Below are positions 6,647 to 53,988 of a stretch of 64,000 bases of DNA, piece after piece; the stretch's first letter is position 1; the number at the start of each line of letters is the position of its first letter. The notes below the pieces were generated by a model. That model was not told the origin of the DNA. It saw nothing but the letters and a program-made list of their open reading frames with translations, and made no database searches. A program made the position numbers and the translations under genes. The stretch spans positions 1,674,001 to 1,738,000 of the forward strand of contig NZ_LN849456.1 in assembly GCF_900070355.1 (NCBI RefSeq), given 5' to 3'. This DNA comes from Devriesea agamarum. GTDB taxonomy: Bacteria; Actinomycetota; Actinomycetes; Actinomycetales; Dermabacteraceae.

Positions 6647-7783
6647 ATGCCCCGCAAGCGTGTCGAGCTGGGAATGCCGCGCATGTCGCGCAGCGTTGAC
6701 CCGGTCACTATACCCGGACGGTCTTTGCCGCATGACGGCACTGGCGATGAGCGCACCCGCCCTGCGTCATCGGGTCTTGTCGATACGTATGGGCGCACCG
6801 CTACCGATCTGCGGGTTTCGCTGACGGACTTCTGCAATTTGCGTTGCACTTACTGCATGCCAGCTCAGGGGTTAGATTTTCTGCGCAAAAACCAGTTGAT
6901 GAGCACTGATGAAATCGTTCGGCTCGTCGATATTGCGGTTCATCATCTCGGCGTTCAGCAGGTGCGGTTTACCGGCGGGGAACCGCTCACTCGACCTGAA
7001 CTACCCGAGATCCTCTCGGCGGTTGCGTCGCTATCGCCGCGTCCTGATCTATCGCTGACCACAAATGCGATTGGTTTGGATACCCGCGCCGAGGCGCTGC
7101 GCCAGGCGGGGCTCAACCGGGTCAATGTGTCGCTGGATTCCGTGGTGTCCGAAACTTTCGAGCGTCTGACCCGCCGTCCGCTGCTGCACCGGGTTCTGGA
7201 TGGGATCGACGGGGCGCTGGCTGCGGGGCTTACGCCGCTGAAGGTGAATGCGGTCCTCATGCCGGGAATCAACGATCATGAAGCCGCTGATCTTCTGGCG
7301 TGGTGCCTCGACCGCGGTCTGCAACTGCGCTTTATTGAGCAGATGCCTTTAGACGCGGGGCATACTTGGCAGCGGCGTCAGATTGTGACGGCGTCCGATG
7401 TGCTGGACCTGCTGTCGCAGCGTTTTACCCTCACTGCCCATTCAGCTCCACGCAATGGCTCACCCGCGGAACTGTTCGATGTCCGGCAGGCAGGTAGCTC
7501 GACGAGTGATCCGGTGCTGGGGCAGGTTGGCGTGATTGCCTCTGTGACCCGTCCGTTCTGCGGCGATTGCCGACGCACCCGGCTCACTGCCGAAGGCCGC
7601 GTGCGCACCTGCTTGTTTGCGCGCGAGGAAACAGATCTGCTTACCTCGCTGCGGTCCGGGGCTAGCGACACGGAGATCGCTGATCTGTGGCGCCTCGCTC
7701 ACTGGGGCAAACAGGCTGGTCACGGTATGAATCGTGAGGACTTCGTGCAGCCTGAGCGGCCAATGAGCGCAATTGGCGGGTAA
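6647..7783 (+). CDS. moaA: GTP 3',8-cyclase MoaA
   Basis: Radical-SAM enzyme that carries out the first step of molybdopterin synthesis, cyclising GTP. The N-terminal [4Fe-4S] motif is CNLRCTYC (near residue 66), followed by FTGGEPLTRPEL, the SAM-contact segment. The C-terminal second cluster ligands appear as CGDC and a further Cys in GRVRTC, and the protein ends in GG, the double glycine that MoaA proteins insert into the active site. The first ~50 residues are an unconserved extension, but the GAGGAGGT site directly before 6647 supports this start. moaD follows 77 bases later on the same strand; the moeA operon is divergent. Confidence 0.96.
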   Translation: MPRKRVELGMPRMSRSVDPVTIPGRSLPHDGTGDERTRPASSGLVDTYGRTATDLRVSLTDFCNLRCTYCMPAQGLDFLRKNQLMSTDEIVRLVDIAVHHLGVQQVRFTGGEPLTRPELPEILSAVASLSPRPDLSLTTNAIGLDTRAEALRQAGLNRVNVSLDSVVSETFERLTRRPLLHRVLDGIDGALAAGLTPLKVNAVLMPGINDHEAADLLAWCLDRGLQLRFIEQMPLDAGHTWQRRQIVTASDVLDLLSQRFTLTAHSAPRNGSPAELFDVRQAGSSTSDPVLGQVGVIASVTRPFCGDCRRTRLTAEGRVRTCLFAREETDLLTSLRSGASDTEIADLWRLAHWGKQAGHGMNREDFVQPERPMSAIGG

Positions 7784-7860
7784 CCCGCCGTGCACCGCAT
7801 CCCTCTTCGTACCGCACCCGCCGTCATGGCGTCCGTCGAGACAGACCCAAGGAGCCTCCC

Positions 7861-8118
7861 ATGCCCGCTGTAAACCTCCGCTTTTTCGCTGCCGCCGCCG
7901 CGACGATGCGCACCGACGAACTATCCGTTGACGCCTGCACACTCGGCGACGCCTTATCGGCGGCCAAGGCTCACGGCGAGGCGAACGGTGACTCCACCGC
8001 CGCCACGGTGATTGACCGGTCTAGCTACCTGCTTAACCGCGTCTCGTGCGCTGACCTGACCACTGGACTCTCCAACGGGGACCAGATCGACGTTTTGCCG
8101 CCTTTTGCGGGTGGGTGA
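7861..8118 (+). CDS. moaD: Molybdopterin synthase small subunit MoaD
   Basis: Ubiquitin-like sulfur carrier. The 85-residue protein starts MPAVNLRFFAAAAATM and ends in DVLPPFAGG, whose terminal Gly-Gly is adenylated by MoeB-type E1 protein and converted to thiocarboxylate. A GGAGCC ribosome site precedes the ATG. Its partner large subunit MoaE lies at 3284-3916 and the likely activating enzyme at 19162-20340, so the full synthase pathway is inside this window. Confidence 0.95.
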   Translation: MPAVNLRFFAAAAATMRTDELSVDACTLGDALSAAKAHGEANGDSTAATVIDRSSYLLNRVSCADLTTGLSNGDQIDVLPPFAGG

Positions 8119-8222
8119 GTGCGCCCACGCGCGAGGTTGGCATGGGTTGGCATCACTTCGCTAGGCCCCATGTCGATCAAGCCCCGCATCACCGCACGAT
8201 CCGTCTGTCACCCCAGGACATA

Positions 8223-8260
8223 TTTGCCGATTCGGCAAACCTGATTGCCAATCCGGTTTC
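8223..8260. promoter_or_regulatory. Two operator-like sites spaced 21 bp before the DUF2938 gene
   Basis: 8223-8239 is a perfect palindrome, TTTGCCGA-T-TCGGCAAA. 8244-8259 repeats its left part as TTGCCAATCCGG. The TTGCC starts are 21 bases apart, two helical turns. The convergent XRE-cupin regulator at 8802-9380 is the obvious candidate to bind here; that is inference. Confidence 0.5.
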
Positions 8261-8305
8261 CTCCTAGCGACGGTAGGTTCCCACTACCAAAACTAGGAGC
8301 ACAGC

Positions 8306-8839
8306 ATGCGACTTTCACAGGGTCAGATCTGCCAGGCGATCATCGTGGGGGTCGGAGCGACCGCCGTTATGGACGCAACGGCTGAGGTACTTCGACGCAC
8401 CCGCGGGACTCGTTCCCTGGACTATGCACTGGTAGGGCGATGGCTCGGCCACATGAAGCGCGGCCAATTCCGCCACGACTCCATCAGCGCAGCGCAACCC
8501 GTCCCCCACGAACGCGCCCTCGGATGGAGTGCCCACTACGGGATTGGCGCGAGTTTCGCGGTGACCATGGCCGCAATCAAACCTCAGCTGCTCGACCGGC
8601 CCAAGCTGCTTCCAGCAGTCACGATGGGTCTCGCCACACTAGCGGCACCGTGGTTCCTCATGCAGCCAGCCTTCGGATTCGGTGTGGCCGCCTCGAAGAC
8701 ACCAAACCCCGCCCAAGCTCGTCTCGGGAGCATCCGCGCACACGGAGCCTACGGAGTAGGACTGTGGCTGTCCGGAATCGCGTGCACGCGGGCTCACCGC
8801 CTCATCTCGACCCCATCCCCTCACCGTCGGGCCCTATGA
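8306..8839 (+). CDS. DUF2938 family membrane protein
   Basis: Predicted inner-membrane protein of unknown function, 177 residues. Hydrophobic segments lie near residues 8-25, 70-90, 95-120 and 140-160. The family signature is visible in the second half: WFLMQPAFGFGVAASKTPNPAQARLGSIRAHGAYGVGLW. An AGGAG lies just before the ATG. Its 3' end overlaps the convergent XRE-cupin gene by 38 bases; I believe these two families are often adjacent, which suggests the regulator controls this gene. Confidence 0.8.
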   Translation: MRLSQGQICQAIIVGVGATAVMDATAEVLRRTRGTRSLDYALVGRWLGHMKRGQFRHDSISAAQPVPHERALGWSAHYGIGASFAVTMAAIKPQLLDRPKLLPAVTMGLATLAAPWFLMQPAFGFGVAASKTPNPAQARLGSIRAHGAYGVGLWLSGIACTRAHRLISTPSPHRRAL

Positions 8840-49966: not shown

Positions 49967-50107
49967 ATGGGATCAACACGTAGCGAACTTAAGAAGGCGA
50001 CCGCTCAGCTTGCCGAAGACGAGACCTTCGACTTTGACTTCTTTCTAGAAGAAACAGATCAAACCGAATCGGAACGTGCCGCGCACAGTTCCGTAACGAA
50101 GGCTTAA
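49967..50107 (+). CDS. Putative RiPP precursor peptide (46 aa)
   Basis: Encodes a 46-residue acidic peptide: a start MGSTRSELKKATAQLAEDE, then an aromatic/acidic block FDFDFFLEE (residues 21-29), then a short Ser/Thr-rich end, TDQTESERAAHSSVTKA. ATG 49967 follows AGGAG with 6-base spacing, and the YcaO gene starts one base after its stop. Size, position before a YcaO and an HExxH enzyme, and a leader-like acidic first half fit a ribosomally made, modified peptide. I infer leader roughly 1-29 and core roughly 30-46. The peptide has no Cys, so thiazoles or lanthionines are excluded; Ser, Thr, Asp and His are the candidate modification sites. Confidence 0.72.
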   Translation: MGSTRSELKKATAQLAEDETFDFDFFLEETDQTESERAAHSSVTKA

Positions 50108-50108
50108 G

Positions 50109-51377
50109 TTGGACAGCTTTAGCCTCAGAGCGGCGTCTCGGTCCAAACTGAGACGCCGCTCACAACTTGAGCGGTCACGGCATTTATCGCAAGCAATAGC
50201 CGAGGGTTACGCCGCACTTGCTAGCGAAGGACTACAAATTAAGTTACAAGAAGTTGACCATAGCCCCGAAAGTGGGTTACGCATAGTCCAAGCCAAAGCA
50301 AAACAACAACGCTCAGCAATCGTGGTGTACGCGGTGGGTAAAGGCATTGATCGACAGAGTGAAGCAAGCGCCATTTTTGAAACAATCGAGCATGCAGCCG
50401 CTACAGGAGTTATCGGGACAACGCGAGCGCAGCCTACGGAAGTTACCGAGGGGGAAATTATTACCGATACTTTATCTAGGTATGCATTAAAAAATAATAT
50501 CGCTCGTTACACAAAATTTTATAAACTAACAAACAAATATGATCTTTCAACAATTTCCGGATATTACCCAACAAGCGCATGCGACCTAAGCTCAACTCCA
50601 ATTACGTCCGCCGAGGAAACTTTATCTAATTACTGTTCTTCGACTGGCTACGCCGCAGGGAGCAACATTCGCGACGCTATCCTTCACGCTCTAAATGAAG
50701 TAATCGAAAGAGACGCTATCGGTACCCGATTAATTAATTTCATAATCAAAAAAGAGAATCCACAATATCACAAAACTTTCGATGATGAGACACTTAATCA
50801 CCAGTCAAAATCAATTTCAAAACAGATAGGTCGTCAACTACGCTTCGTACAACTACCAAGCTTAGCTGGTACAACGATAGCCGCGTATGCTAGTTCCACA
50901 CCGTATAGCAAAACCGCCATAGTTGGCTGTGGGAGTAGTTGGTCTGCCGCATACGCTGCCGAGCGGGCAATCGCAGAGGCGCAACAAGAGCATTGGGCAA
51001 ATTCCCAGGAATTTGGCATTGAACACGATGGAGGGGTCACATCGGAAGTGGCACTCGCACGTTACCCCGTTCTTCTTCATGCCAAGCGAACACGTAATAT
51101 GTTCTACGACGCTACCCAGTCAACCTCAGATTTATCAACAAAAACGCGAGATAAAAATACTAATAGTCGATCACTCGTAGCAGAACTAAACAATCGTGGA
51201 TATGAAGCATACGGGAGAGTGGTTTGGATGGCGAAGACTGGCGGAGCGGCAGTTTGCCAGGTCATAATCGCTGGCGCCGAGCGATTCAATATGATTAAAT
51301 TCGGGATTCCCATACAGGCAACTGGGCGACTTGTAGATAAAGAAACTATTAAACACCTAATTAAGAAAGGAATATGA
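50109..51377 (+). CDS. YcaO-family peptide-modifying enzyme
   Basis: 422 residues; TTG start one base after the precursor stop. YcaO enzymes activate backbone amides with ATP to make azolines, amidines or thioamides. The three ATP/Mg regions are visible: GKGIDRQSEASAIFETIEH (78-96), GYAAGSNIRDAILHALNEVIERDA (180-203) and GCGSSWSAAYAAERAIAEAQQE (273-294). The chain does not end in the Pro-x-Pro-x-Pro motif of azoline-forming cyclodehydratases, and no E1-like, ocin-ThiF or TfuA partner is encoded nearby, so it is either stand-alone or works with the 88-residue protein downstream. Visibly AT-rich, unlike the host. Confidence 0.88.
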   Translation: MDSFSLRAASRSKLRRRSQLERSRHLSQAIAEGYAALASEGLQIKLQEVDHSPESGLRIVQAKAKQQRSAIVVYAVGKGIDRQSEASAIFETIEHAAATGVIGTTRAQPTEVTEGEIITDTLSRYALKNNIARYTKFYKLTNKYDLSTISGYYPTSACDLSSTPITSAEETLSNYCSSTGYAAGSNIRDAILHALNEVIERDAIGTRLINFIIKKENPQYHKTFDDETLNHQSKSISKQIGRQLRFVQLPSLAGTTIAAYASSTPYSKTAIVGCGSSWSAAYAAERAIAEAQQEHWANSQEFGIEHDGGVTSEVALARYPVLLHAKRTRNMFYDATQSTSDLSTKTRDKNTNSRSLVAELNNRGYEAYGRVVWMAKTGGAAVCQVIIAGAERFNMIKFGIPIQATGRLVDKETIKHLIKKGI

Positions 51378-52342
51378 TGTTTACAGAAAATAAAACCACT
51401 ATCAGCAAGGCTATTAAATCTTTGGTAGGTGGCCGATACGGAGATTCCAAAATCATCGACACAGTGTCTCGCACTTGGTATGAAAGCTTTGGAGCGCCCA
51501 TGGAGCTTTACGACACAGATGTCCTCCACCCCGGCGCCGAATCTTTACTGGAAACTCGAGCTTTGAATTCGACAGCTGTTTTATGGGATTCCCAGCATGT
51601 CTTTCAACCGCTTAAAACACTTAAGGGCGACCCAAAGTCACTCAGCGCAACTGATCATCCAGCTGATCACGAGGTCGACGTTGAGGTCTCATCCAGGACT
51701 GCCGAACCCATTGTCCCATTATCTTGGGAAATAGAGCACAAAATTAAACAGTCCTTCCAAGATCTCCTAGCCTATGGTGGAGCCATGGGGCAAGACGCAA
51801 TCAAGTACCTTAAACGGCTACGCCTTGTGAGTGGAAAAACTGTTGTAGGCGGCACTTTTACTGACCTTGTAGGTTTATCATACTTTGACGTTTCGACATT
51901 TAGCGACTCTGAAGAAGGATCAGAGTCCCTCCTTCACGAGTGCCTCCATTCCAAAGCGCAACGTATCACAAGAGGATTTGACCGCCCATTTCTTGACGAT
52001 CAGGCCCCGGAAACGCTAGAGATTCCATGGTGGCGAACTAATAAATCAAGGGTTTTCTGGAACACGTCTCGAGCTTTTGATGCGTTCCATGTTTATTCGC
52101 ACATTTCATTACTTGCGGCAGCTCGCTATACAAAAACACAATCATCCAAGACCCTTCGCCGTTGTCAGATCGCCGCATTCCGGTCAGCATATCTATATAG
52201 CATTCTTAAATCCGCTTCAGACGCAGATCTAGACGAAGAGCGTCGTCTGATGGCGGTTTGGATTAAAGAAATTACTCTGCCCCCTTTTGGTTTAACTAAA
52301 GAAGCTGCTGATCTTATTGATTCACCATTAGGAGTGAAGTAG
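51374..52342 (+). CDS. HExxH-type putative peptide beta-hydroxylase
   Basis: 322 residues, overlapping the YcaO stop by 4 bases (ATGA). The motif SLLHECLHSKAQRI gives HECLH at residues 188-192, and downstream IPWWR (217-221), then RAFDAFHVYSHISLLAA with His 239 and His 243. This arrangement (HExxH, Pro-Trp-Arg, then a His in a helix) fits the HEXXH-motif peptide-modification family, annotated as 2-oxoglutarate-dependent peptide beta-hydroxylases in NCBI naming, rather than a zinc protease. It would hydroxylate a side chain of the precursor, for example Asp or His. AAAGGA precedes the start. No signal peptide, so cytosolic. AT-rich like its neighbours. Confidence 0.75.
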   Translation: MMFTENKTTISKAIKSLVGGRYGDSKIIDTVSRTWYESFGAPMELYDTDVLHPGAESLLETRALNSTAVLWDSQHVFQPLKTLKGDPKSLSATDHPADHEVDVEVSSRTAEPIVPLSWEIEHKIKQSFQDLLAYGGAMGQDAIKYLKRLRLVSGKTVVGGTFTDLVGLSYFDVSTFSDSEEGSESLLHECLHSKAQRITRGFDRPFLDDQAPETLEIPWWRTNKSRVFWNTSRAFDAFHVYSHISLLAAARYTKTQSSKTLRRCQIAAFRSAYLYSILKSASDADLDEERRLMAVWIKEITLPPFGLTKEAADLIDSPLGVK

Positions 52343-52343
52343 T

Positions 52344-52610
52344 TTGGATCCTCGCGACAAATATGAAATCGGGGATGAGACTTCCGTCGCAATCAACAGA
52401 TATCAATTACTGAAGACGATAGAAGTTTGTCGAGCAGCAATTGACCCCCAGAAGTTGGAATCATATTTTGCCCTAAAGGCGCTACTGTTACTGGAGGTAG
52501 AAAGTGCAGTTCAACTTGATGGTCGACAAGACTATGATTCTCTTAAAAAGAATTTAATAGAATCACTGAAAGTTGCACCATGGCCGAAATCGAGACGCAG
52601 TGCCGATTAA
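52344..52610 (+). CDS. Unrecognised 88-residue protein of the RiPP-like cluster
   Basis: TTG start with AGGAG nine bases upstream, one base after the hydroxylase stop. The sequence is mostly helical by eye (NRYQLLKTIEVCRAAIDPQKLESYFALKALLLLEVESAVQ), with no membrane segment and no PqqD-like pattern that I can identify. Its place between the modification enzyme and exporter suggests a scaffold, leader-recognition, or immunity role; I cannot choose. Its end overlaps the exporter start. Confidence 0.7.
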   Translation: MDPRDKYEIGDETSVAINRYQLLKTIEVCRAAIDPQKLESYFALKALLLLEVESAVQLDGRQDYDSLKKNLIESLKVAPWPKSRRSAD

Positions 52611-53877
52611 TACGTCCATAGTTCGACGCGCCCAGCTCCTGATGGTTACCGGGCTACTCTCTTCATATATCGGGTCCCAAATAATTGAAGGAGCAGTCTC
52701 CGGTTTCATTACTTTGGGGCTCTTCCCGGTGATGTGGGTTCCTATTTACCGCACCGTCACTGATTTCCAGGATGCCCTCGCGTCAGGCATCTCAAAGCTG
52801 ATCGAAGGCCGGGATCCTGGTCGCGTTCTGGTTACGTGCGAGGGCGTCGATATTTGCGTCACCGCGGTCACCATGGTGGCGCTGCTCTTATCGCCAGAAA
52901 GTATCCGCACACCGATCCTGGTCATATACCTTCTCGCTGTTTCTTTTCTTCCGCTCATCGTCGATCTCGCCGAGGAGTTCTATCTCAACGACATCGGCCA
53001 AGTGGATGCCTCGCTGGTTATCCGCGCGAACACACTCATCGTGGTCGGGACCGCAGTGAGCGGATTGGTCATAGGTCAACCAGTCGGCGCTCTGATCAGC
53101 CCGGCGGGTATCGTCCTCATTCTCGGTCTGAATCTGGTGGCGTCCCTGCTCGCCATCTACTTCAGGACCAGATCAGCGAGGATTTTCAGTCCGCCCCATA
53201 CGGTTGACGATACGGACGCCGACCAAGCGTTGAACGCTCGCTCAATTATTCGATTCTTTATTCCGTCGAGCCTGAGCATCCTCACTAGATTCGGCTACCT
53301 GTCACCCTTCTTTTCGTTTGTCGTGTCATTTAGCCCGGCCCTCATTGGGACCTATATTCTCCTGTGGGCAGTTGGCAGCGGCCCTCACGCCACCAAGTCG
53401 CTCGGCGGACTGCTCTTTGTCGTGGGTGTAATCGCCGCGGCGAGCCCATATCTGATCGGACGCCTCATGCGTCGATATCGCGAGTCGGTACGCATTATTT
53501 TGCGCTATCTCCTGTGGGGAGTGCTGGCCGGATACTGTTGCAGTCTGGCTGGGATTTTGTATTCCGACAGCGCGCGTACCAAGTCGATCATCGTAATCAC
53601 TGGATTTCTTATCGCTACCGTCTGTGTAACCGGAGTTCGCTTCGCTATTTCGACGTCGCGGCAATCCGCGCTAAAACAATCGGACTTTCGCGCCGTCGTC
53701 GGCTGGTCTTACTCCATGACCGCACTCGGAGGCATAGCGGGCTCGTGGGTCGGGCTATGGCTCGGGGTGGCGCGTAACCCGACAATCGCCTTGGCTCTCG
53801 CAGCCGCGACGATGCTTTGTGTGGCGATCTGGGCGACACTGTGCCGCGCCCCGACAGCGGCCAGCGCGAACGCCTAA
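52600..53877 (+). CDS. MFS-type exporter of the RiPP-like cluster
   Basis: About 425 residues with roughly 12 hydrophobic segments (for example GLLSSYIGSQIIEGAVSGFITLGLFPVMWV, ILVIYLLAVSFLPLIVDLA, SLGGLLFVVGVIAAASP) and cytosolic Arg-rich loops such as GRLMRRYRESVR. This fits the major facilitator fold, and the cluster position suggests export of the modified peptide. GTG 52600 is preferred (GAGA before it); TTG 52573 would lengthen the protein by 9 residues. Its base composition is noticeably GC-richer than the preceding three genes. No ABC exporter or leader protease is present, so leader removal must occur elsewhere. Confidence 0.75.
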   Translation: MPINTSIVRRAQLLMVTGLLSSYIGSQIIEGAVSGFITLGLFPVMWVPIYRTVTDFQDALASGISKLIEGRDPGRVLVTCEGVDICVTAVTMVALLLSPESIRTPILVIYLLAVSFLPLIVDLAEEFYLNDIGQVDASLVIRANTLIVVGTAVSGLVIGQPVGALISPAGIVLILGLNLVASLLAIYFRTRSARIFSPPHTVDDTDADQALNARSIIRFFIPSSLSILTRFGYLSPFFSFVVSFSPALIGTYILLWAVGSGPHATKSLGGLLFVVGVIAAASPYLIGRLMRRYRESVRIILRYLLWGVLAGYCCSLAGILYSDSARTKSIIVITGFLIATVCVTGVRFAISTSRQSALKQSDFRAVVGWSYSMTALGGIAGSWVGLWLGVARNPTIALALAAATMLCVAIWATLCRAPTAASANA

Positions 53878-53894
53878 AAACAAGCCGGCAAAAA

Positions 53895-53988
53895 CACCTA
53901 GCTTCGTACACCCGTCGTCGCGCACATCCTGCCTACACAAGCACCTAGCTTCACGCACCCGTGGTCGCACATATCCTGCCCGCACAGC
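53895..53988. repeat. Two imperfect 47-bp direct repeats
   Basis: Units 53895-53941 and 53942-53988 both start CACCTAGCTTC and share most positions through CATCCTGCC/TATCCTGCC. They fill the gap after the exporter and mark the right edge of the insert. Confidence 0.8.

Follow-up and report, generated by a model that had tools for sequence, protein, structure and literature searches.

We report that a run of five open reading frames (ORFs) in Devriesea agamarum (contig NZ_LN849456.1, positions 1,674,001 to 1,738,000; hereafter the window, meaning the whole stretch of 64,000 nucleotides that was analysed) is very probably a cassette for a ribosomally synthesized and post-translationally modified peptide (RiPP), with a YcaO protein and an HExxH-motif protein as its two modifying enzymes; this degree of confidence does not extend to the exact chemistry. 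The ORFs lie on the + strand at 49967-53877 in the order 46-amino-acid (aa) candidate precursor, YcaO, HExxH protein, 88-aa ORF and major facilitator superfamily (MFS) transporter, and an ORF check bore out the head-to-tail order and coordinates given in the initial annotation of this DNA. Its description of the junctions as one-base gaps and four-base overlaps held for the first three, but at the last one the genes overlap by 38 or 8 bases, according to whether the MFS gene starts at the TTG at 52573 or the GTG at 52603. We favour a RiPP cassette because the same gene order is found in a distant actinobacterial lineage, with short ORFs that are alike beyond shuffled controls, because three of the four loci have AGGAG ahead of the short ORF and the genes form a bounded insert, and because the motifs of both enzymes align with those of solved relatives. 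By these comparisons the short ORF, a YcaO with no E1/Ocin-ThiF or TfuA protein beside it, a relative of the alpha-ketoglutarate (alpha-KG)-HExxH hydroxylases and an MFS transporter form a recurring unit.

With the HExxH protein as query, tblastn against 72,556 plasmid records found a single match at E<=1e-3, which lies on the Mycobacteroides chelonae plasmid pMchErm55. There a 47-aa ORF is followed by a YcaO (annotated as YcaO-like family protein), an HExxH protein (hypothetical protein) and an MFS protein (MFS transporter), with identities to the window proteins of ~30%, 25% and 29% respectively. An 83-kb contig of Mycolicibacterium iranicum H39 encodes four proteins that are letter-for-letter those of M. 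chelonae, and a further genome of the mycobacterial genus (locus L048) carries a decayed cassette of the M. chelonae type, split by transposase-like genes, in which the MFS protein is 99% identical to that of M. chelonae and no YcaO was detected in the 16 kb read. The association on which the initial annotation had staked its proposal, a YcaO and an HExxH gene next to a conserved short ORF, is thus present in the single independent lineage that was found. Counting that of the window itself, strong HExxH matches (E<1e-100) occur in 1 of the 396 phylum genomes, 2 of the 394 from the class and 1 of the 297 from the order, and in 2 of 297 genomes of the mycobacterial genus, one of these being the broken L048 copy; when every match at E<=0.001 is counted, the numbers are 2, 4, 2 and 5 respectively. 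A joined YcaO and HExxH query of genome contigs returned nine loci, with both enzymes only at L018, in a scan that picks up only sequences with an exact copy of either of two short patterns and so misses diverged relatives. The HExxH protein alone found no match in genome contigs, HExxH or YcaO alignments found none in viral contigs, and a DNA-level search of plasmids found nothing. The HExxH matches at L006, L009/L012, L010/L013 and L027 (E ~5e-5 to 5e-4) were put aside as too distant and the Nonomuraea locus L014 as unannotated, while L015, L016 and L049-L051 were used as distant HExxH family members only.

The candidate precursor (49967..50107, +; ATG start), MGSTRSELKKATAQLAEDETFDFDFFLEETDQTESERAAHSSVTKA, is as first described a Cys-free peptide of 46 residues, with AGGAG before its ATG. 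It has an Asp24-Phe25-Phe26 element and a C-terminus containing Ser and Thr, the residues of this region including Asp31, Gln32, His40, Ser41, Ser42 and Thr44. With the M. chelonae ORF it has in common an MG-x-TR-x-E start, the Asp-Phe-Phe element and a Ser/Thr-containing tail. When the two were compared with shuffled sequences, the first Met being held fixed, the local score of 38 (shuffle mean 19.6) was equalled by 3 of 2000 shuffles in each of two runs, and the global score of 37 was reached by 1 of 2000 and 0 of 2000. We take these likenesses to mean that the two ORFs are related, so that the window and M. chelonae/M. iranicum loci each have the conserved short ORF beside modifying enzymes that is expected of a RiPP cluster.

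Short ORFs also stand in front of same-clade YcaOs at L019, a Mycobacterium metagenome-assembled genome, and at L072 from the same genus, both with an Ala-Phe-(Leu/Phe)-Val-Pro stretch. The L072 peptide resembles those of L019 (2 of 2000 local shuffles as good) and M. chelonae (4 of 2000), counts that are optimistic since its GTG start was picked by eye from the upstream ORFs after the resemblance was noticed; between L019 and M. chelonae no likeness was detected (653 of 2000 local shuffles as good). In all four clade peptides the first Phe of the Phe-Phe (or Phe-Leu) pair is followed at a distance of 4-9 residues by a Ser, Thr or Cys, a spacing that may weakly favour azoline over amidine formation. 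The YcaO-peptide pair could be the older unit, to which the HExxH enzyme would have been added in two lineages. Neither the precursor nor the 88-aa protein has a Pfam or NCBIfam match at E<=1. A streptamidine-type precursor (NF040714) was considered and rejected, as the window peptide is unmatched by this model while the streptamidine-type precursor of the same genome, serving as a positive control, matches at 2.4e-18.

The YcaO gene (50109..51377, +; 422 aa) begins with TTG after a one-base gap and its product matches Pfam PF02624 (E=4e-25, 89.2 bits against a cut-off of 25.7), with no second fused domain recognised. An AlphaFold2 model from an 8-row alignment (mean pLDDT 61.6, pTM 0.68) has the YcaO fold; its closest solved structures are MjYcaO of M. 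jannaschii (6peu) and MkYcaO of M. kandleri (6ci7), and identity to solved YcaO structures is 12-17%. The YcaO profile aligns with MJ1094 and TruD across the GKG, E-x-x-E, HALNEViERD-like and RALxExxQ stretches, which we take to be the ATP/Mg region. In a tree of 13 YcaOs, for whose long branches the program gave a warning, the window protein groups with mycobacterial L018 and L019 (support 98/98), apart from the three other YcaOs of the host genome, including the streptamidine-type one.

Cyclodehydratase YcaOs have a Pro-rich PxPxP C-terminus. The window YcaO ends in ...KHLIKKGI, without PxPxP, and the azol(in)e cyclodehydratase type, that of thiazole/oxazole-modified microcins and linear azol(in)e-containing peptides, was rejected. 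So was a classical azole cluster of this kind: as the initial annotation had it, no cyclodehydratase partner family (E1 or Ocin-ThiF) is matched by any of the five insert genes, a negative that covers these five genes only and has outside its scope a partner acting in trans, for example from the thiopeptide-like cluster of the host. A TfuA thioamide cluster was likewise discarded, since TfuA (PF07812) has no match at E<=0.001 anywhere in the genome. Pfam and NCBIfam scans assigned none of the five cassette proteins to an E1/Ocin-ThiF, TfuA, dehydrogenase or protease family.

An inverted repeat of 15 nt (50128..50161, +; 93% complementary, 4-nt loop) lies near the 5' end of the YcaO gene, a short way past the precursor stop codon. 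The 101-nt fold around it has a predicted energy of -47.4 kcal/mol (z -6.1), a stability reached by 0 of 200 shuffles. The absence of a U-run speaks against a classic terminator, and the repeat could form an RNA hairpin that lowers enzyme expression relative to the peptide.

Other YcaO loci were met along the way. Four YcaOs are encoded in the 2.96 Mb of the host genome. One belongs to a streptamidine-type cluster (L040, G000:C1:860000-876000) with a 32-aa precursor at L040:4872-4970, the one matched by NF040714, a YcaO at 7055-8488, and FecCD-like and ABC-transporter-like genes nearby that were recognised by eye; two more lie in a thiopeptide-like cluster (L038/L039, G000:C1:2724000-2755000) with a nitroreductase, a lantibiotic dehydratase N-terminus and, by eye, ABC-transporter-like and clpP/clpX-like genes. 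A second group of partnerless YcaOs (L017, L021-L024, L073 and L075) has upstream short ORFs with an L-(T/S)-x-x-E-x-x-x-(L/I)-like stretch, again by eye; on a plasmid of Streptomyces sp. NBC_01707 the YcaO of this group is followed by a SagB-family dehydrogenase.

The HExxH protein (51374..52342, +; 322 aa, ATG start) overlaps the YcaO gene by 4 bases. It has HECLH at residues 188-192, Pro-Trp-Trp-Arg at 218-221, where the initial annotation had given Pro-Trp-Arg, and His243; the putative metal ligands are His188, His192 and His243, accompanied by Glu189 and Pro218-Trp219. Among the residues invariant across seven aligned HExxH proteins are His188, Glu189, His192, Trp219, Arg233, Tyr241, His243 and Arg270. 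In a profile-profile comparison a two-row HExxH alignment matched five further HExxH proteins (99.0%, E=5.5e-18, 190 columns); TIGR04267 (aKG-HExxH-type peptide beta-hydroxylase, cut-off 40 bits) gives 17-39 bits for the four of these that were scanned and 28.8 bits for the M. chelonae protein. The best match of a seven-row profile in the PDB is ChlH (8s5f, E=0.0016), with the HExxH, the Pro-Trp and the distal His aligned, and ChlH-type proteins are described as alpha-KG hydroxylases in excerpts of PMC12636437. The HExxH and distal His that mark an alpha-KG-HExxH hydroxylase thus stand in the family's sequence context. The earlier naming of this protein as a hydroxylase is upheld insofar as it is a relative of these enzymes, while the hydroxylase assignment itself comes from homology only.

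Two of the distant HExxH family members lie on plasmids beside short ORFs. On pGnpA106 of Glutamicibacter nicotianae (L016:6952-10975) a 40-aa ORF, a 212-aa protein, the distant HExxH protein, a methyltransferase and an MFS protein stand in a row, possibly another HExxH RiPP cassette, without YcaO; its 40-aa peptide is of borderline likeness to that of the window (51 of 2000 local and 39 of 2000 global shuffles as good). On a Streptomyces xanthophaeus plasmid (L015:7182-9068) a 67-aa ORF with a five-His run and three Asp lies upstream of the distant HExxH protein.

The last two genes of the insert are the 88-aa ORF (52344..52610, +), which begins with TTG after a one-base gap with AGGAG 9 bases upstream, and the MFS gene (52573 or 52603..53877, +), whose product matches NCBIfam NF037960 (E=2e-107). 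The 88-aa gene has a GC content by codon position like that of the neighbouring cassette genes, its product has no match at E<=1 in the plasmid search, and a counterpart is missing between the HExxH and MFS genes of M. chelonae. It had been counted as part of the cluster; it is a real ORF in the window, but its absence from the mycobacterial loci makes it an accessory protein and a candidate for an immunity, chaperone or regulatory function. At E<=1e-10 the MFS protein has a sole match among the plasmid records, the 29% identical MFS protein of the M. chelonae cassette, and it probably serves in export or self-protection.

Over the first four cassette genes GC falls from ~65% to 44-51%. GC at third codon positions is 0.36-0.50 in the precursor, YcaO, HExxH and 88-aa genes, 0.66 in the MFS gene and 0.69-0.78 in three flanking genes. 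The left neighbour is a zinc-type alcohol dehydrogenase and the right one a THUMP-like methyltransferase, and the homologue of the latter directly adjoins the dehydrogenase in 8 of 9 loci of relatives, these being the best dehydrogenase matches with a locus returned from 38 other relatives searched; at the ninth (L031) it was not found within the 1.5-kb flanks of the dehydrogenase. Since the two genes are usually adjacent, the cassette was inserted between normal neighbours, and by composition and context we regard it as a bounded, GC-poor, horizontally acquired insert. This discrete placement, together with the gene order repeated in mycobacteria, argues against a chance arrangement. A 47-nt repeat is present in two tandem copies (79% alike) at 53884-53977, directly past the MFS stop at the right insert end. 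Promoter and terminator scans gave no excess over shuffles, and no tRNA was found in 40000-64000.

Several observations weigh against a RiPP cassette with these two enzymes. The YcaO and HExxH pair is rare, with only two independent intact lineages. The expectation of a compact cluster with both enzymes, raised in the initial annotation, is supported by the order recurring in mycobacteria, but the same-clade YcaOs of L019 and L072 come without an HExxH gene: neither an HExxH nor an MFS relative was found in the stretches searched, that of L019 being a 9.8-kb contig that ends 1.6 kb past the YcaO. Likewise, the short ORF is conserved between the window and M. chelonae/M. iranicum, but the likeness of the window peptide to that of L072 is weak (33 of 2000 local and 50 of 2000 global shuffles as good, figures again optimistic), and to that of L019 undetected (920 of 2000 and 1610 of 2000); BLASTP of the window and M. 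chelonae peptides gives zero alignments. TIGR04267 matches the HExxH protein at E=1e-3 with 19.1 bits, under its cut-off, the two-row HExxH profile finds nothing credible in the PDB, and the AlphaFold2 model from the two-row alignment has a mean pLDDT of 34.5 and was not used. Finally, none of the cassette genes was recognised as encoding a protease.

In the favoured reading as a RiPP cassette, the Phe-Phe element would be the part of the leader bound by the enzymes, and the YcaO, consuming ATP, would phosphorylate one of the backbone amides of the C-terminal core, which contains Ser/Thr. Capture of the activated amide by a Ser or Thr hydroxyl, giving an oxazoline, is the most likely route, tentatively preferred. 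Using Fe(II), O2 and alpha-ketoglutarate, the HExxH enzyme would beta-hydroxylate a core residue (candidates are Asp31, His40, Gln32 and a Phe), a protease from outside the cassette would cut off the leader, and the MFS protein would export the product and may protect the producer.

Capture by a peptide amine instead would give an amidine, as in bottromycin and streptamidine, whose YcaOs form amidines according to excerpts of PMC8442711, and the HExxH enzyme would then be a tailoring step. We consider this possible but doubtful: TfuA is unmatched in the whole genome, as this route would have it, but the precursor lacks an NCBIfam match where that of the host's own streptamidine-type cluster has one, the window core has a single Lys and the M. 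chelonae tail zero, and a protease to free an N-terminal amine was not recognised in the cassette.

HExxH is also a zincin motif, and in a cassette otherwise without a recognised protease the HExxH protein might be the leader-removing peptidase and not a hydroxylase. PflC, a member of the same superfamily, can also hydrolyse peptides that lack a leader, as excerpted from PMC12636437. Against this unlikely role stand the alignment of HExxH, Pro-Trp and distal His with ChlH and the identity of the sole curated match, a peptide beta-hydroxylase model, though it scores under the cut-off.

Sulfur capture, a thioamidation by the YcaO independent of TfuA, is improbable in our judgement; it is suggested by the archaeal YcaOs of the MjYcaO/MkYcaO type, presumably McrA-thioamidating, being the closest solved folds, and by a weak score with TIGR03266 (McrA thioamidation; 66.6 bits, cut-off 365). 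For thioamide RiPPs of bacteria, the pathways described have a YcaO paired with TfuA (PMC13174530, PMC8442711, in excerpt). The genome is without a TfuA match, and the low identity to the YcaO structures likewise counts against it. Quite improbable is a system that makes no RiPP, with a 46-aa ORF that is fortuitous or a small regulator and enzymes that modify a cellular protein: some YcaOs act on proteins such as McrA and, reportedly, ribosomal protein uL16 (PMC13063428), but a second lineage has the short ORF at the same position and with part of its sequence conserved, the MFS gene is co-conserved and the locations are a plasmid and an insert. Capture by water, making the YcaO a peptidase, seems most improbable of all; MusD, the muscoride YcaO, is a precedent for ATP-dependent peptide cutting (PMC10885120, in excerpt) and shares the YcaO fold, but has a 784-residue chain and belongs to an azole-containing cyanobactin pathway.

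Set beside known systems, the proposed RiPP cassette is similar to those of streptamidine and bottromycin in its standalone YcaO, adjoining short precursor and lack of E1/Ocin-ThiF or TfuA. It differs from them in a precursor of another family and in the additional alpha-KG-HExxH relative and MFS exporter, lacks the Fec-type transporter, hydrolase and dehydrogenase genes of the streptamidine ami cluster, and has a YcaO of a different clade from the streptamidine-type one of its host. With ChlH, BpmH, PflC/PosC and PesO it shares a RiPP-type gene neighbourhood and the HExxH, Pro-Trp and distal His (aligned with ChlH), but its sequence falls under the family cut-off and its partner is a YcaO; alpha-KG-HExxH hydroxylases, which hydroxylate RiPP precursors (PMC12636437, PMC13060819), accompany radical SAM or MNIO enzymes, not YcaO, in the excerpts of PMC12636437, PMC12257519 and PMC13060819. 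The pMchErm55/M. iranicum H39 locus agrees in its four-gene order and related precursor and differs in having no 88-aa protein. Among the partnerless YcaOs of actinobacteria, most of them uncharacterised, are known makers of amidine RiPPs (PMC8442711, in excerpt), and these two precedents, a hydroxylating HExxH family and RiPP-making YcaOs, further support the cassette reading. The initial annotation's remark that the class could not be named, and that the chemistry may be new, therefore does not apply to the partnerless YcaO by itself, known from bottromycin and streptamidine, but does to its pairing with an alpha-KG-HExxH relative.

The cassette thus joins two RiPP enzyme families for which, in the excerpts of open-licence PubMed Central literature, no description in one pathway or cluster was found. 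It would be a very small set-up, of two enzymes and one exporter, on mobile DNA that includes a plasmid of an opportunistic pathogen. Both enzymes might even act on one residue, the HExxH enzyme beta-hydroxylating one that lacks a hydroxyl, for example Asp31, the Asp after the Phe-Phe element, and the YcaO cyclising the new hydroxyl onto the preceding backbone amide to an oxazoline that keeps the side chain; we hold this to be very improbable, but if it were true, backbone heterocycles would no longer be confined to Ser, Thr and Cys. As the 46-aa substrate is defined and the insert ends are known, the chemistry is directly testable, and the answer would bear on partnerless YcaOs with Cys-free cores.

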